Below are positions 18,761 through 37,619 of a DNA stretch of 64,000 bases, in pieces. The position numbers and the translations under genes were made by a program. How positions within the stretch are numbered: position 1 is the first letter of the stretch; each line of letters opens with the position of its first letter. The notes below the pieces were generated by a model, which was not told where the DNA came from, ran no database searches, and worked only from the letters and a program-made list of their open reading frames with translations. The stretch covers positions 62,001 through 126,000 of the forward strand of contig NZ_CP024160.1 in assembly GCF_002736145.1 (NCBI RefSeq), written 5' to 3'. Source of the stretch: Collinsella aerofaciens (GTDB taxonomy: Bacteria > Actinomycetota > Coriobacteriia > Coriobacteriales > Coriobacteriaceae).

Positions 18761-18791
18761 GAAAAGGGGCGCTGTGCATAGACAGCGCCCC
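18761..18791 (-). terminator. Riboswitch expression-platform terminator
   Basis: GGGGCGCTGT, a short loop, ACAGCGCCCC and TTTT lie between the TPP aptamer and the thiM ribosome site on the minus strand. This is the expected position for TPP-induced termination. Confidence 0.85.
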
Positions 18792-18797
18792 TGTAAA

Positions 18798-18897
18798 GGC
18801 GGCATGCTCCCTACGCCAGCATTAACTGACAGGTTCAAAGGATTGGGCCCCATGCCCTCTCAGCCTTGTGGTTTGCACCGCCGGCACTCCCGCATCG
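18798..18897 (-). promoter_or_regulatory. TPP riboswitch (THI element)
   Basis: On the minus strand the conserved THI-box pieces appear in order: GCGGGAGTGC, GGCTGAGAGGGC, CCTTTGAACCTGT and AATGCTGGCGTAGGGAGC. An intrinsic terminator follows directly, then the ribosome site of thiM. Thiamine pyrophosphate should switch off the operon. A -10-like TAGTAT lies at 18912-18917 on the same strand. Confidence 0.95.
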
Positions 18898-18921
18898 AAT
18901 CTGTTGTCCCTATACTAGCGC

Positions 18922-19063: not shown

Positions 19064-19972
19064 ATGATCAAACTTGTGCTGACCGATATGGACGATACGC
19101 TGATTCCTGCTGGACACGATGGCGCCAGCGACTGCGCCATCGAGGGCATTCATGCCATGCAGGCGGCGGGCCTGCATTTTGGCCCGGTTTCGGGTCGCCA
19201 GCCGTCCGCGATGAGCTGGATGTTCCGCAATCGCTCCGAGTGCTTCTCGACCGGTGCGTTTTGCAACGGCCAGGTGATGTTTGTCGATGGCGAGGCGGTT
19301 GCCTCGCGCGCAACTGATAACGATGCCCTTATGCGCCTGGCCGACTACCTGGAGCAAGAGACCGACGATACCTATTTGAAGGTCTACCGTCTGGGTGATG
19401 ACTTTTGGGACAACGACGCCTATTGCGTGACAAGCGATCCCGAGCGTGTGCGTCGCGCCATGGAGTCAGGCGGCAACGCGTGGCTCAAGGGCGAAGAGGC
19501 TCCCTGTCGCCCTGTCGTTGACGATGCCCCGGTATACAAGGCGAATATCTGGAGTGCCCGTTCGCGCGAGGAGCTCGCCGAGCTGCGCGAGCGTGTTGCC
19601 GCCGAGGTGCCGGAGCTCTCGCTCGTGTTTCCCAACAACCGCGTGTGCCTGTTCGACGTTCTTCCGACCGGCTGGGACAAGGGCTGTGCTGCGCTGGAGC
19701 TGGCGCGCGCTTTGGGCCTGACGCCCGACGAGGTGGCCGTATTCGGCGATTCCGATAACGATTTGCCCATGATCGATGCCGTTCCCAATTCCGTTGCAGT
19801 CGCCAATGCCAACGAGGCCGTCACGGCTGCCGCGCGCTGGCATATCGGCGCTGCGGCAGATGATGCGGTTGCCGGGGCTCTGCATCAGATTGCCGCCTGC
19901 GCCGCGACGGGGGAGATGCCGTCGTTTATGCGTCAGATGGACGCGACGGGTTTCGACGTCACGAACGTCTAG
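19064..19972 (+). CDS. HAD-superfamily Cof-type phosphatase
   Basis: A 302-residue phosphatase. LTDMDDTLIP has the nucleophile Asp (DxDxT), SGRQPSA is motif II, and GDSDNDLPMIDAVPNSVAVANA is motif IV with the C2-cap pattern of the Cof/YidA group. The substrate is probably a sugar phosphate or flavin-type phosphate and cannot be assigned. A GAGGGGAC site precedes ATG 19064, and TACAAT at 19027-19032 is a likely -10 box. Only 10 bases separate it from the LysR gene, so they may be cotranscribed. Confidence 0.85.
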   Translation: MIKLVLTDMDDTLIPAGHDGASDCAIEGIHAMQAAGLHFGPVSGRQPSAMSWMFRNRSECFSTGAFCNGQVMFVDGEAVASRATDNDALMRLADYLEQETDDTYLKVYRLGDDFWDNDAYCVTSDPERVRRAMESGGNAWLKGEEAPCRPVVDDAPVYKANIWSARSREELAELRERVAAEVPELSLVFPNNRVCLFDVLPTGWDKGCAALELARALGLTPDEVAVFGDSDNDLPMIDAVPNSVAVANANEAVTAAARWHIGAAADDAVAGALHQIAACAATGEMPSFMRQMDATGFDVTNV

Positions 19973-34048: not shown

Positions 34049-34133
34049 AAATTGAACTTTCGAATGAGGTACGGCGCTATACTGCTTGCTAAATTGAACC
34101 TTGGTTCAATTCGTGTTCTATAAATTGAACTTT
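34049..34133 (+). promoter_or_regulatory. Three TTGAAC-type sites upstream of the HTH-aminotransferase fusion
   Basis: The 12-mer AAATTGAACTTT occurs at 34049-34060 and 34122-34133. Between them the 20-base palindrome AATTGAACC-TT-GGTTCAATT spans 34092-34111. A TATACT -10 box lies at 34078-34083. The sites straddle the promoter, as for autoregulation by the downstream HTH protein. Confidence 0.6.
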
Positions 34134-34151
34134 GCCAGCAAGGAGGTTCCT

Positions 34152-35672
34152 GTGGCCCAAGAGACGTTTAGCGATCGCCTGCGACAGACTATGTCCGATC
34201 GCGACGTTCGCCAGTCGGACGTAATCCGCGCATCGGAGATGCTCGGCAAAAAACTCGGCAAGAGTCAGATGAGCCAATATGTGAGCGGCAAGACGATTCC
34301 GCGGCGCGATGTGGCAGAGCTGCTCGCCCGTATTTTGGAGGTCGATGTTACCTGGCTGCTCGCCGGTGACGCCGACCAAGGCGAGGAATCATCTCCCCGC
34401 AACGATTCCAAGCCCGAACCCCATCCCTCAGCTCAAATTGCAAGGAGCGCCACCATGCGTACTTTTTCTAAATCCACCAAGCTCGATAACGTCCTGTATG
34501 ACGTGCGCGGTCCCGTCGTCGACGAGGCCGCCCGTATGGAGGACGAGGGCGAGCGCATCCTCAAGCTCAATATCGGCAACCCGGCGCCCTTCGGTTTCCG
34601 CACGCCCGATGAGGTCATCAAGGACATGCGCCAGCAGCTGCCCGACTGCGAAGGCTATTCCAACTCGCGTGGCCTGTTCTCCGCGCGCAAGGCGATCATG
34701 CAGTATTCGCAGATCAAGGGCTTGCCCAACGTTCAGATGGAGCATATCTACACAGGCAACGGCGTATCCGAGCTCATTCAGCTTTCGATGAACGCGCTGC
34801 TCGACAATGGCGACGAGATTCTGATCCCCAGCCCCGACTATCCGCTCTGGACGGCGTGCGCAACCCTTGCCGGCGGTCATCCCGTGCACTATCTGTGCGA
34901 TGAGCAGGCGGATTGGTATCCCGACCTGGAGGATATGGAGTCCAAGATCACGAGCGCGACCAAAGCCCTCGTCATCATCAACCCCAACAACCCCACGGGT
35001 TCCGTCTATCCGCGCGAGGTGCTCGAGGGCATCGTCGAGGTTGCGCGCAGGCATCAGCTGATGATCTTTGCCGATGAGATCTACGACCGCCTGTGCATGG
35101 ACGGCTACGAGCACGTCTCGATTGCCTCGCTCGCCCCCGACCTGCCCTGCGTTACCTTTAGCGGTCTGTCCAAGTCGCACATGATCGCGGGCTATCGTAT
35201 TGGCTGGATGGTGCTTTCGGGCAACCAGCGCTGCATGAGCGACTTCATCATGGGCATCAACATGCTCTCCAACATGCGCCTGTGCTCCAACGTGCCGGCT
35301 CAGTCGATCGTTCAGACGGCGCTCGGTGGCCATCAGTCCGTCAACGACTACATCCGCCCCGGCGGCCGTGTCTACGAGCAGCGCAACTTTGTGTATGAGG
35401 CGCTCAACAAGATTGACGGCATCTCGGTGGTCAAGCCCCGTGCGGCGTTCTACATCTTCCCCAAGATGGATGTGAAGAAGTTCAACATTACCGATGACGA
35501 GCAGTTCGCCCTTGACCTGCTGCACGAGAAGAAGATCCTGATCACGCGCGGCGGCGGCTTTAACTGGGCTGAGCCCGACCACTTCCGTATCGTGTACCTG
35601 CCGCGCATGGAAGTGCTCAAAGAGTCCCTCGAAGACCTCGCCGACTTCTTCGACCATTACCGCCAGAGCTAG
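34152..35672 (+). CDS. XRE helix-turn-helix fused to class I/II aminotransferase
   Basis: A 506-residue fusion. Residues about 8-75 form a XRE/Cro helix-turn-helix (RQSDVIRASEMLGKKLGKSQMSQYVSGKTIPRRDVAELLARIL). A Pro/Ser linker follows, and from about residue 102 there is a full AlaA-like PLP aminotransferase (LNIGNPAPFGFRTPDEV, YTGNGVSELIQLS, INPNNPTGSVYP, PLP lysine in FSGLSKSHMIAGYRIGW). The C-terminal domain is complete, so it may be an active alanine-type aminotransferase that also binds DNA. GTG 34152 follows AAGGAGG. An inner AAGGAG plus ATG 34455 could give the enzyme alone. Not a GntR/MocR fusion. Confidence 0.87.
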   Translation: MAQETFSDRLRQTMSDRDVRQSDVIRASEMLGKKLGKSQMSQYVSGKTIPRRDVAELLARILEVDVTWLLAGDADQGEESSPRNDSKPEPHPSAQIARSATMRTFSKSTKLDNVLYDVRGPVVDEAARMEDEGERILKLNIGNPAPFGFRTPDEVIKDMRQQLPDCEGYSNSRGLFSARKAIMQYSQIKGLPNVQMEHIYTGNGVSELIQLSMNALLDNGDEILIPSPDYPLWTACATLAGGHPVHYLCDEQADWYPDLEDMESKITSATKALVIINPNNPTGSVYPREVLEGIVEVARRHQLMIFADEIYDRLCMDGYEHVSIASLAPDLPCVTFSGLSKSHMIAGYRIGWMVLSGNQRCMSDFIMGINMLSNMRLCSNVPAQSIVQTALGGHQSVNDYIRPGGRVYEQRNFVYEALNKIDGISVVKPRAAFYIFPKMDVKKFNITDDEQFALDLLHEKKILITRGGGFNWAEPDHFRIVYLPRMEVLKESLEDLADFFDHYRQS

Positions 35673-35747: not shown

Positions 35748-36158
35748 CTATATAACAATCCCGTTGCAGTGGTCGATTTCGTGTTGGATGATCTCGGCGG
35801 TGTAGCCCGAGAAGTTCTTGATGCGGTGGACGAAGTTCTCGTCCAGATATTCCACCTTAATGCGACGATAACGAGTGCAGGGACGCTCGCCGACGAGAGA
35901 AAGACATCCTTCGCTCGTCTGGTAGGCATTGACCTGCTCAAGAATTTGCGGGTTGTACATAAGCAGCGACTTGCTGCCGTCCTTTACGCAGATGATGCGT
36001 TTGCGCACACCGATCATGTTGGCGGCGAGGCCCACGCACTCGTGCTCATGCTCGTGGAGCGTATCCAGAAGATCCTGTCCGGTCGCGGCATCTTCTGGGC
36101 CGGCGTTTTCGGAAGGCAGGCGCAAAAAGAACTCGGATTTCATGATGGGCTTAATCAT
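35748..36158 (-). CDS. Peptide-deformylase family protein
   Basis: A 136-residue deformylase. Motif II is SEGCLS and motif III is QHEIDHCNG, so the metal ligands and catalytic Glu are intact. Motif I is VGLAANMIG where the canonical enzymes have a Gln that stabilises the oxyanion; here it is Met. It is shorter than housekeeping Def (about 165-180 residues). It may deformylate nascent peptides or a special substrate. Compare the degenerate paralogue at 28048, which keeps the Gln but loses the Glu. Confidence 0.85.
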   Translation of the reverse strand: MIKPIMKSEFFLRLPSENAGPEDAATGQDLLDTLHEHEHECVGLAANMIGVRKRIICVKDGSKSLLMYNPQILEQVNAYQTSEGCLSLVGERPCTRYRRIKVEYLDENFVHRIKNFSGYTAEIIQHEIDHCNGIVI

Positions 36159-36215: not shown

Positions 36216-36372
36216 ATTAATGTGTGCACATAGATTCTGCAGCTAGATTGGCGGGCGACACCATAAACTAATGGGCGTTTTGCCGAGAGGCATGAATGTT
36301 TAAAGCGCAAAGAGTGCGCGACGGGCCCCGCGAATGGGGCGATGATGCCCGAGAGGGCCAAGAAGGAGTCTC

Positions 36373-37266
36373 ATGTCCGAGAACGAAGAGATCATGAACG
36401 AGACCGAGAACGAGACCATGGCTGCCGAGGTAGAGGCAGTCGAGACCGTGGAGACCGAAGCTGCCGAGGTTGAGGCTGCTGACGAGGTTTCCGCCGAGGA
36501 GGAGGCCGAGGTTGTCGAGGCCGCCGTTGATTACGATGACGAAGAGCTGATGGACAAGATGCAGAAGGCCGCCCGTCTGCTGCGTAGCCGTCGCTTTGCT
36601 ATTTCCAAGGAGGAGGAGGCCAAGGCCGAGCGCATGGCGAACATCGAGCGCGCCATCAAGCTTCTTGACCTCAAGCCCAAGATGGAGCAGAAGGAAATGT
36701 CCGACCTGCTCGGCATGCGCCTCCGCGAGCTCGATGGTCTGATGGCCGAGGCCGAGGCTGCCGATCTGGTCGGCCGCATCGACGACGCCGAGGGCGATAT
36801 GCGCAAGATCGTCGTCTTCGCTGCCGAGGATGCCGCTGAGGGCCTGGTCGAGCTTGCCAACAAGAAGGAGAAGCTCTTGCCCGAGCTTTCTTACGAGGAG
36901 GCCACCGAGCTGATGGCCGCTCTCGATAAGGTTATTGCTCCGCTCGTCGCCATGGGCCTGGACGAGGACCGCGGTCCTCGCGGCGGCCGTGACGATCGCG
37001 GTGGTCGTGGCGGCGACCGTGGCGGTCGCGGCGGCTTTGGCGATCGCGGTGGCCGTGGTGGCGACCGTGGCGGTCGCGGTGGCGATCGCGGCGGCCGTGG
37101 CGGCGACCGTGGCGGTCGCGGCGGCTTCGGCGGCAACCGTGGTGGCTATGGCGACCGTGGTGGTAACCGTGGCGGCTTCGGCGGCAACCGTGGTAACGAT
37201 CGCGGCGGTCGCGGTGGCGACCGTGGCGGCCGCAACGGTGGCGGCTTCCGCGGCAACCGCTTCTAG
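36373..37266 (+). CDS. Winged-helix protein with acidic N-terminus and RGG-rich tail
   Basis: A 297-residue protein in three parts. Residues 1-58 are highly acidic (Glu, Val, Ala). Residues about 60-195 contain a MarR-like winged-helix segment (IERAIKLLDLKPKMEQKEMSDLLGMRLRELDGLMAEAEAADLV). Residues about 200-297 are a low-complexity Gly/Arg/Asp tail with many RGG and GGDRGG units. RGG tails bind RNA in eukaryotes and drive condensation; in a bacterium this is inference. AGAAGGAG precedes ATG 36373. The long GC-rich leader may be structured. Its native role is not known. Confidence 0.8.
   Translation: MSENEEIMNETENETMAAEVEAVETVETEAAEVEAADEVSAEEEAEVVEAAVDYDDEELMDKMQKAARLLRSRRFAISKEEEAKAERMANIERAIKLLDLKPKMEQKEMSDLLGMRLRELDGLMAEAEAADLVGRIDDAEGDMRKIVVFAAEDAAEGLVELANKKEKLLPELSYEEATELMAALDKVIAPLVAMGLDEDRGPRGGRDDRGGRGGDRGGRGGFGDRGGRGGDRGGRGGDRGGRGGDRGGRGGFGGNRGGYGDRGGNRGGFGGNRGNDRGGRGGDRGGRNGGGFRGNRF
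36965..37262 (+). repeat. Tandem DNA repeats encoding the RGG tail
   Basis: Units such as GGCGACCGTGGCGGTCGC recur about a dozen times with small changes. The synonymous variation shows that the protein sequence, not just the DNA, is kept. Such repeats can change in number by slippage. Confidence 0.75.
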
Positions 37267-37306: not shown

Positions 37307-37407
37307 GCGCGCCCACCAGAGCGACAACTTGTCATTCAAAGAGGACGGCATGACCAGAAGGTCTATGCCGTCCTCTTTTCATGCCAATTTGTTCGCTCTG
37401 GTGGGCG
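37307..37407 (+). terminator. Nested hairpins with intrinsic terminator after the RGG gene
   Basis: An inner hairpin (AGAGGACGGCAT ... ATGCCGTCCTCTTTTC, 37340-37379) has the form of an intrinsic terminator. It lies inside an outer pair of arms reading GCGCCCACCAGAGCGA and its exact complement. Confidence 0.75.
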
Positions 37408-37455
37408 CTCGCTGTCGTTGCCGAAACATCGGCGTTGCCTTTGTTGCCATAGTCA

Positions 37456-37499
37456 TTGGGGACGTTCTTGTTTGACTAGTCGTTTAAGAACGTCCCCAA
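37456..37499. repeat. Inverted repeat TTGGGGACGTTCTT-N16-complement
   Basis: Perfect 14-base arms with a 16-base spacer; the outer AGTC/GACT bases extend the pairing past one mismatch. The arms contain GGGGAC, as in the other palindromes. Confidence 0.8.
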
Positions 37500-37511
37500 C
37501 GACTACATAGG

Positions 37512-37579
37512 ATGAGAGTGGATAATCTCCCGGTTTGAGCCTGCATTCAAACTCAAAGTGGGAGATTATCCACTCTCAT
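37512..37579. repeat. Perfect 20-base inverted repeat with inner stem
   Basis: The left arm starts ATGAGAGTGGATAATC and the right arm is its exact complement over 20 bases. The 28-base loop has an inner TTTGAG/CTCAAA stem. Confidence 0.85.
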
Positions 37580-37619
37580 TTGTTGTGTGTCCGAAAATTC
37601 ACGCTCGTTTCTATGCTGC

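Follow-up and report, generated by a model that had tools for sequence, protein, structure and literature searches.

We present evidence that Collinsella aerofaciens possesses a protein in which a MarR-type winged-helix core is framed by an acidic head and an RGG tail, and that the mRNA of this protein opens with a conserved row of short hairpins that is almost certainly a functional RNA element. The reading that we favor, to which we give a probability of about one half, is that this is a MarR-derived RNA-binding protein under autogenous control through its leader, possibly replacing the cold-shock protein CspA; it is argued from sequence comparison throughout. The gene lies within a 64,000-nucleotide stretch of DNA, here called the window, and is present in single copy in the 2.31-Mb single contig of the host genome. 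The features of the locus are collected in Table 1.

Table 1. Features of the RGG-tail locus, in window coordinates
Feature	Position	Strand	Basis or remark
XRE-HTH + aminotransferase-like gene, upstream of the RGG-tail gene	34101-35672	+	product name from sequence reading; start codon uncertain
Peptide-deformylase-like ORF, divergent to the RGG-tail gene	35748-36158	-	product name from sequence reading
-10 box TAAACT (relatives' consensus TA(A/C)ACT)	36264-36269	+	alignment A2; 0/6 columns vary, 22 distinct sequences
Leader hairpin 1, tgccGAGAggca, GNRA tetraloop	36281-36292	+	0/12 columns vary
Leader hairpin 2, gcgc-AAAGAGT-gcgc	36305-36319	+	0/15 columns vary; loop insertion in one sequence
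Leader hairpin 3, gcccc-GCGAAT-ggggc	36325-36340	+	0/16 columns vary
Leader hairpin 4, gcccGAGAgggc	36347-36358	+	0/12 columns vary; 4 nt 5' of Shine-Dalgarno
Shine-Dalgarno sequence AAGGAG	36363-36368	+	read directly
RGG-tail ORF, 297 aa	36373-37266	+	ATG 36373, stop 37264-37266
Acidic head, aa 1-54	36373-36534	+	21 Asp/Glu, 0 Lys/Arg
MarR-type winged-helix core, aa 55-197, with D-M-R wing motif	36535-36963	+	PDB profile, AlphaFold2, fold search
RGG tail, aa 198-297, and stop	36964-37266	+	19 RGG, 50 Gly, 25 Arg
Possible terminator, 12-bp inverted repeat, then TTT	37340-37379	+	read directly; function inferred

The sequence-only reading of this DNA had described an acidic head, a MarR-like core and an RGG tail, and this account of the anatomy and family of the protein is now nearly certain. 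A profile of the cores of 18 relatives matched MarR proteins in the PDB, with 2fbi as the best match (E 3.5e-6). In an AlphaFold2 model of the core as a single chain (pLDDT 91, pTM 0.69), a 45-residue first helix that fuses helices 1 and 2 is followed by a winged helix and a C-terminal helix. The 50 rows shown by a Foldseek search with this model were all taken to be of MarR type, in part by their titles, with a whole-length TM of about 0.4. VIA Z reached 10.6 for the core model, a score that by the tool's own note can reflect an arrangement merely common among helical proteins, and its rows included some winged helices outside MarR, for example Zalpha domains. Neither Pfam nor NCBIfam gives the RGG-tail family a name: Pfam returned no MarR and no cold-shock domain match for the window protein, only 2 of the 18 relatives' cores match PF01047 (best E 1.2e-4), and the NCBIfam matches were HpaR, at E 0.0039 well short of the cut-off, and one chance match (E 0.98).

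In divergent species too the protein has an acidic head, a core of this kind and an RGG tail. The acid excess of the heads is 15 to 30 residues in most loci and 5-8 in Olegusella/Atopobium, the tails are 99-105 residues long in C. aerofaciens-type loci, and RGG motifs are repeated in the tails of relatives as well, as expected of RGG/RG-motif proteins; the composition of these tails suggests disorder. An RGG-tail gene is present in 59 of 65 genomes of the Coriobacteriaceae family and in 11 others of Coriobacteriales, and the ORF, whose coordinates proved exact, is as it had been described and not a chance reading frame. Within the family, matches are missing from all four genomes of genus g2 and from G036 and G055, which are 72% and 85% complete. 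When the core profile (alignment A1) was searched over 396 genomes of the class, the strong tier (E < 1e-40) comprised the carriers of the family, nine genomes of family f2 and two of family f3, the remaining listed matches being much weaker MarR matches; in the phylum sample of 396 genomes no strong core match fell outside Coriobacteriales. The earlier statement that such a protein is unusual in bacteria is thus partly right: it suits the core, but in the same order RG-rich tails are not rare among MarR-type proteins, several of the more distant relatives having one. In the host genome, the RGGxRGG pattern (pyrimidine wobble) has six sites in the RGG tail and two lone sites elsewhere. A search of open-licence PMC found no paper on this RGG-tailed family.

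The protein shares a winged-helix core and D-x-R wing with MarR, SlyA and HpaR (PDB 2fbi, 1s3j, 7el3), and differs from them in its modelled fused N-terminal helix, its acidic head and its RGG tail. An alternative reading is an ordinary MarR transcription factor, in which the RG-rich tail merely boosts non-specific DNA binding and the leader hairpins are a separate matter. The MarR fold found by profile and model, the weak HpaR match and the D-M-R wing motif, which is invariant in alignment A1, all suit this explanation; since the D-x-R wing is retained, DNA binding may persist. Distant relatives with RG-rich tails also have palindromic operators, and at one locus ABC-transporter-like genes stand behind. 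Nevertheless, inspection by eye of the listed upstream regions of 34 RGG-gene carriers revealed no common palindromic operator, GGTACC being present in 2 of the 34, the RGG-tail gene stands alone in the window with no target operon, and the fused helices and the missing Pfam MarR match set the window protein apart. We regard a conventional transcription factor as rather unlikely.

The sister MarR genes bear on this comparison. In a sample of 18 distinct weak-tier MarR loci, a GGTACC-centred palindrome lies 5' of the core in eight and a GRRA hairpin in none, and the MarR relatives at L106 and L109 carry 15-16 RGG motifs without a GRRA leader, so tail and leader can occur apart. This contrast indicates that the hairpin leader tracks the derived core, and that the RGG tail alone is not predictive of it. 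The palindromes, one or two 5' of each MarR gene (ACAGGTACCTGT, ACCGGTACCGGT, AAGGTACCTT; loci L103, L105, L106, L107, L108, L110, L128 and L133), are probably a common operator code. A candidate DNA operator upstream of the RGG-tail gene in C. aerofaciens, gcgacatgtcgc, was rejected, as it was not seen in the other species listed.

The leader itself is a row of three to four short hairpins between the -10 box and the Shine-Dalgarno sequence, and transcription probably starts about 7 nt 3' of the -10 box. The short hairpins mentioned in the sequence-only reading were confirmed as four in the window, only two of which have GNRA loops. Across 22 distinct C. aerofaciens-type sequences the 55 hairpin columns are all constant, whereas 65 of 124 vary upstream of the -10 box. 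Variation is found at 4 of 11 columns between the -10 box and hairpin 1, at 5 of 12 in the first spacer (spacer 1) and at none of 11 in spacers 2 and 3. The Shine-Dalgarno-proximal hairpin is kept in 15 aligned relatives and abuts the Shine-Dalgarno sequence in many. Some 30-45 nt 5' of the -10 box, an element GTGTGCACAnAGATTCT (window 36222-36238) appeared by eye to be loosely conserved in several Collinsella-type promoters and is perhaps an activator site.

Hairpins with GNRA tetraloops are strikingly enriched in these leaders and confined to one strand. With at least three Watson-Crick pairs per stem, 34 leaders (140 nt) hold 62 GNRA hairpins in the sense and 0 in the antisense direction, against 4.5 +/- 1.9 (maximum 10) over 200 dinucleotide shuffles. 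Eleven leaders have three such hairpins, 8 have two, 13 have one and 2 (L094, L100) have none. The 34 were drawn from 101 strong-tier loci by dropping most near-identical sequences, with the similar pairs L001/L008 and L027/L030 retained, and by leaving out L037, L039, L075, L099 and L101 for uncertain starts; the leaders of L099 and L101 likewise lack a GNRA hairpin. With stems of at least four pairs, a set of 31 loci that includes near duplicates and some mis-set starts gave 56 GNRA hairpins within leaders, which total 5,115 bases, and 68 in the remaining 468,961 strand-bases; every one of the 29 hairpin pairs less than 70 nt apart fell in a leader. Both strands of the window, of 280 kb of its own genome and of 120 kb of relatives (928 kb of strand sequence) contain 68 GRRA hairpins. 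Two pairs of these lie on the same strand within 120 nt of each other, one being the window's RGG-gene leader and the other lying inside an ORF at 19613-19637 (-); five such pairs are found if any GNRA is counted.

The helices also covary. In an alignment of 15 leaders, a three-hairpin structure taken from one of them pairs 86% of cells, against 34-42% when slid by 1-3 columns, and both sides change at 7 of 14 pairs. None of 500 shuffles reached the covariation score of this alignment, and 58 of 500 reached its number of further pair types. When 21 leaders were folded to minimum energy, mostly separate hairpins resulted; the z-scores (0.6 to -4.3) are modest and unconvincing as stand-alone evidence. 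A correlation between RGG number and hairpin number (Spearman 0.41, p 0.019) was too weak for use, its 32 rows including L099 and L101 and tails that are cut, interrupted by N-runs or early-ending in L079, L086, L087 and L101.

A covariance model built from RGG-gene leaders (R1; 75 positions, 14 pairs) located the element almost only where it was expected. Over 64 whole genomes of the family R1 gave 36 matches, 33 of which, including the leaders used to build the model, lie at the RGG-gene leader in 33 genomes, with ends from 2 nt inside the RGG-gene match to 148 nt 5' of it; the remaining three are inside ORFs. R1 finds no match at the C. aerofaciens version of the leader, that of the window included. 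Over 197 genomes of the order it gave six extra matches outside the family, four inside ORFs, one between two ribosomal-protein genes and one exactly at a cspA leader (G118). The extra matches in G053, G054, G055, G776, G759, G215 and G220 were set aside as lying inside ORFs; the one between ribosomal-protein genes, in G212, was likewise set aside (product names by eye).

The match at cspA is not isolated. On 56 csp loci of the order R1 gave 23 matches at E <= 1, of which 14, the nine best included, are at the csp leader. These leaders, read at 48 of the 56 loci (46 distinct sequences, the other eight loci being diverged copies), often consist of three tandem hairpins reaching the Shine-Dalgarno sequence, mostly with GCAA or GCGA loops. 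GNRA accounts for 31 of their 86 tetraloop hairpins, against 5 antisense and 1.0 +/- 1.0 (maximum 4) over 100 shuffles. The RGG-tail gene thus resembles cspA in being a single gene behind a tandem-hairpin leader that runs from transcription start to Shine-Dalgarno sequence, in having a leader from which a model that also finds csp leaders can be built, and in a distribution partly complementary to that of CspA. It differs in that its product has no cold-shock domain and in its loops, which are GRRA rather than the GYRA preferred in csp leaders (23 of 31 GNRA loops). The Coriobacteriales cspA leader (L161-L208) is itself conserved, and in many copies the central one of its three hairpins is a gcgc hairpin with a GNRA cap. 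Rfam cspA matches on five csp loci were rejected because they are below the gathering score and span the coding region.

Loop choice is informative for a second explanation, that the leader stabilizes a highly expressed mRNA or enhances its translation with no trans-acting regulator, the GNRA loops being kept for stability. Genes of the csp type, which are usually highly expressed, have similar hairpin arrays, and the RGG tail uses no Arg or Gly codons other than CGC/CGT and GGC/GGT, though the same codons are the most frequent in the window's ORFs. GYRA tetraloops should match GRRA loops for stability. Yet in 33 leaders, where GNRA makes up 55 of 83 tetraloop hairpins against 84 of 2,933 in the background (Fisher p 9e-58; rows related), the GRRA type accounts for 53 of the 55 GNRA loops, compared with 35 of 84 in a background that still includes the window's own leader (Fisher p 3e-12; rows related). 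This bias suggests that selection is for more than stability. The near confinement of R1 matches to the RGG gene and some csp genes, and the invariance of spacers 2 and 3 within C. aerofaciens-type sequences, likewise speak against a generic stabilizer, which we consider improbable.

A temperature- or metabolite-sensing leader, acting as thermosensor or riboswitch with no autogenous binding, is less probable still. The mRNA of E. coli cspA is a thermosensor, according to PMC9450479, and provides a precedent. The leaders of L024, L025, L028, L091 and L092 could also be cited in its favor: a larger domain with the conserved stretches GAAYGACA..GATGATC..AGGAAT replaces their first hairpins, below the Rfam gathering score. 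Against a sensor stand the simple hairpins, their fast sequence turnover and the absence of any obvious conserved ligand-binding core, as well as the Rfam results. At the leader, in the window and in 15 relatives' loci, no family reaches its gathering score, and at E <= 10 the window and L092 leaders gave chance-level matches only (RT-17 on the opposite strand, E 0.42; SOX2OT, E 4.9). Two RNA motifs listed in PMC2864571 invite comparison, Collinsella-1 (RF01700), which comes from related bacteria, and Chlorobi-RRM (RF01697), which by name is tied to RNA-binding-protein genes; neither was reported in the window or the 15 relatives' loci at the gathering score, or in the window and L092 leaders at E <= 10. 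With no family of Rfam release 15 matched, the RGG-gene leader would be an added cis-RNA motif.

Two further routes of regulation were weighed. Control by CsrA was rejected, as CsrA is absent from 64 of 64 family genomes and the window's four loops are without GGA. Own-mRNA binding through G-quadruplexes encoded by the RGG repeats, a route that PMC11789052 proposes for human RGG proteins, is highly improbable here, for although the tail coding DNA is G-rich with nine two-tier G-tract patterns, it has no GGG and no three-tier motif.

The occurrence of cold-shock domains (CSD, PF00313) in the order provides a second link to CspA; neither this link nor the resemblance between the leaders had been noted in the sequence-only reading. 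The window's genome (G000) has no CSD match anywhere. Among 70 carriers of the RGG-tail protein, 17 have a canonical CSD (96-102 bits), 16 a diverged one (66-75 bits) and 37 none, and of the 70 non-carriers for which both proteins were searched, 63 have a canonical CSD, 1 a diverged one and 6 none; nine genomes without an RGG-protein search (G758-G766) were taken out of this table. The association has p 9e-16 at the level of genomes, with about two groups carrying the signal by genus labels, and because the carriers are related the CSD absences represent few independent events. The carriers with canonical CspA are eight genomes of genus g3 and nine of family f2, and genus g2, which has no RGG protein, has canonical CspA in 4 of 4 genomes. 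In the diverged proteins (L209-L216, eight copies from Collinsella and relatives), VKWFN has become a KKSFF-type sequence and an insertion is present. The RGG gene has a csp-like leader, and in the main group of carriers CspA has been lost or has diverged; both observations suggest that the work of CspA is done by the RGG protein. Given the 17 of 70 carriers with canonical CspA and the 6 of 70 non-carriers without CSD, replacement is at best lineage-specific. That the RGG-tail protein is an RNA chaperone that replaced CspA is put forward as a tentative idea.

The sequence-only reading had also proposed own-mRNA binding as a possibility. This idea gains comparative support from a conserved, strand-specific and covarying hairpin array almost confined to the RGG gene, and for autogenous control through the leader we put the chances at roughly even. 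In the mechanism that we favor, the protein would be a MarR-derived nucleic-acid-binding protein acting mainly on RNA. Its RGG tail would make multivalent contacts of low specificity, its winged-helix core would provide specific contact or dimerize, and the acidic head would compete for the basic tail and so tune it. The tandem hairpins that open the mRNA, of which one to three are GRRA-capped in most species, end at the Shine-Dalgarno sequence, and protein bound at hairpin 4 would overlap the 30S footprint. An excess of RGG protein, or hairpins left unmelted by it, could thereby block entry of the 30S subunit. The multivalency of RGG and the row of like hairpins would suit cooperative, level-dependent binding. 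Negative feedback would be the simplest circuit: RNA structure, as in the cold, would draw the protein off and translation would resume, so that the protein level would be set by the load of free RNA structure, much as for a cold-shock protein.

The RGG protein may have replaced CspA in Collinsella and a few relatives, where CspA is diverged or absent. A more speculative extension is that a MarR fold was turned into an RNA chaperone by gaining head, tail and a cold-shock-style leader that lets it sense its own free level, that it displaced CspA, whose later fate was divergence (VKWFN to LKKSFF) or loss, and that the GRRA array is a new class of cis-regulatory RNA which the RGG protein reads.

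Nucleolin is a eukaryotic protein with an acidic head, RRMs and an RGG tail. The RGG protein has the same order of acidic stretch, folded nucleic-acid-binding core and RGG tail, although its core is a winged helix instead of RRMs and no homology is claimed. The acidic tail of Hfq competes with RNA, as stated in PMC9037510; the idea of an acidic disordered part that tunes an RNA chaperone may be applied to the RGG protein, which nonetheless has another fold, an N-terminal acidic part and a separate RGG tail. Human RGG proteins, for which rG4 autoregulation is proposed in PMC11789052, share with it an RGG protein in contact, here putative, with its own mRNA, whereas the candidate site in Collinsella is a 5' hairpin array and the tail coding sequence lacks GGG. 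The locus pairs a bacterial RGG protein with an RNA element of its own mRNA that is conserved and nearly gene-specific, a concrete case open to testing, and it may explain how a common genus of the gut manages without cold-shock-domain proteins. If the proposal is true, a MarR fold has been recruited for RNA work.

Several features of the surrounding DNA were observed. When window ORFs were compared with the loci by tblastn, the XRE-HTH/aminotransferase-like gene was detected near the RGG-tail gene at many divergent Collinsella loci and at L091, L092, L094 and L098 of f2 and f3, so that this fusion keeps its place near the RGG-tail gene across three families of Coriobacteriales. On the 3' side (window 37440-37590) lie tandem palindromic repeats, TTGGGGACGTTCTT... 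and GAGTGGATAATCTCCC..., which may be the reason that many C. aerofaciens contigs stop just 3' of the RGG-tail gene. Genome-wide, the GAGTGGATAATCTCCC repeat occurs as 7 palindromic pairs and the TTGGGGACGTTCTT repeat as 26 single sites, in places adjoining. The only Rfam match at gathering score in the window is a TPP riboswitch at 18791-18901 (-).
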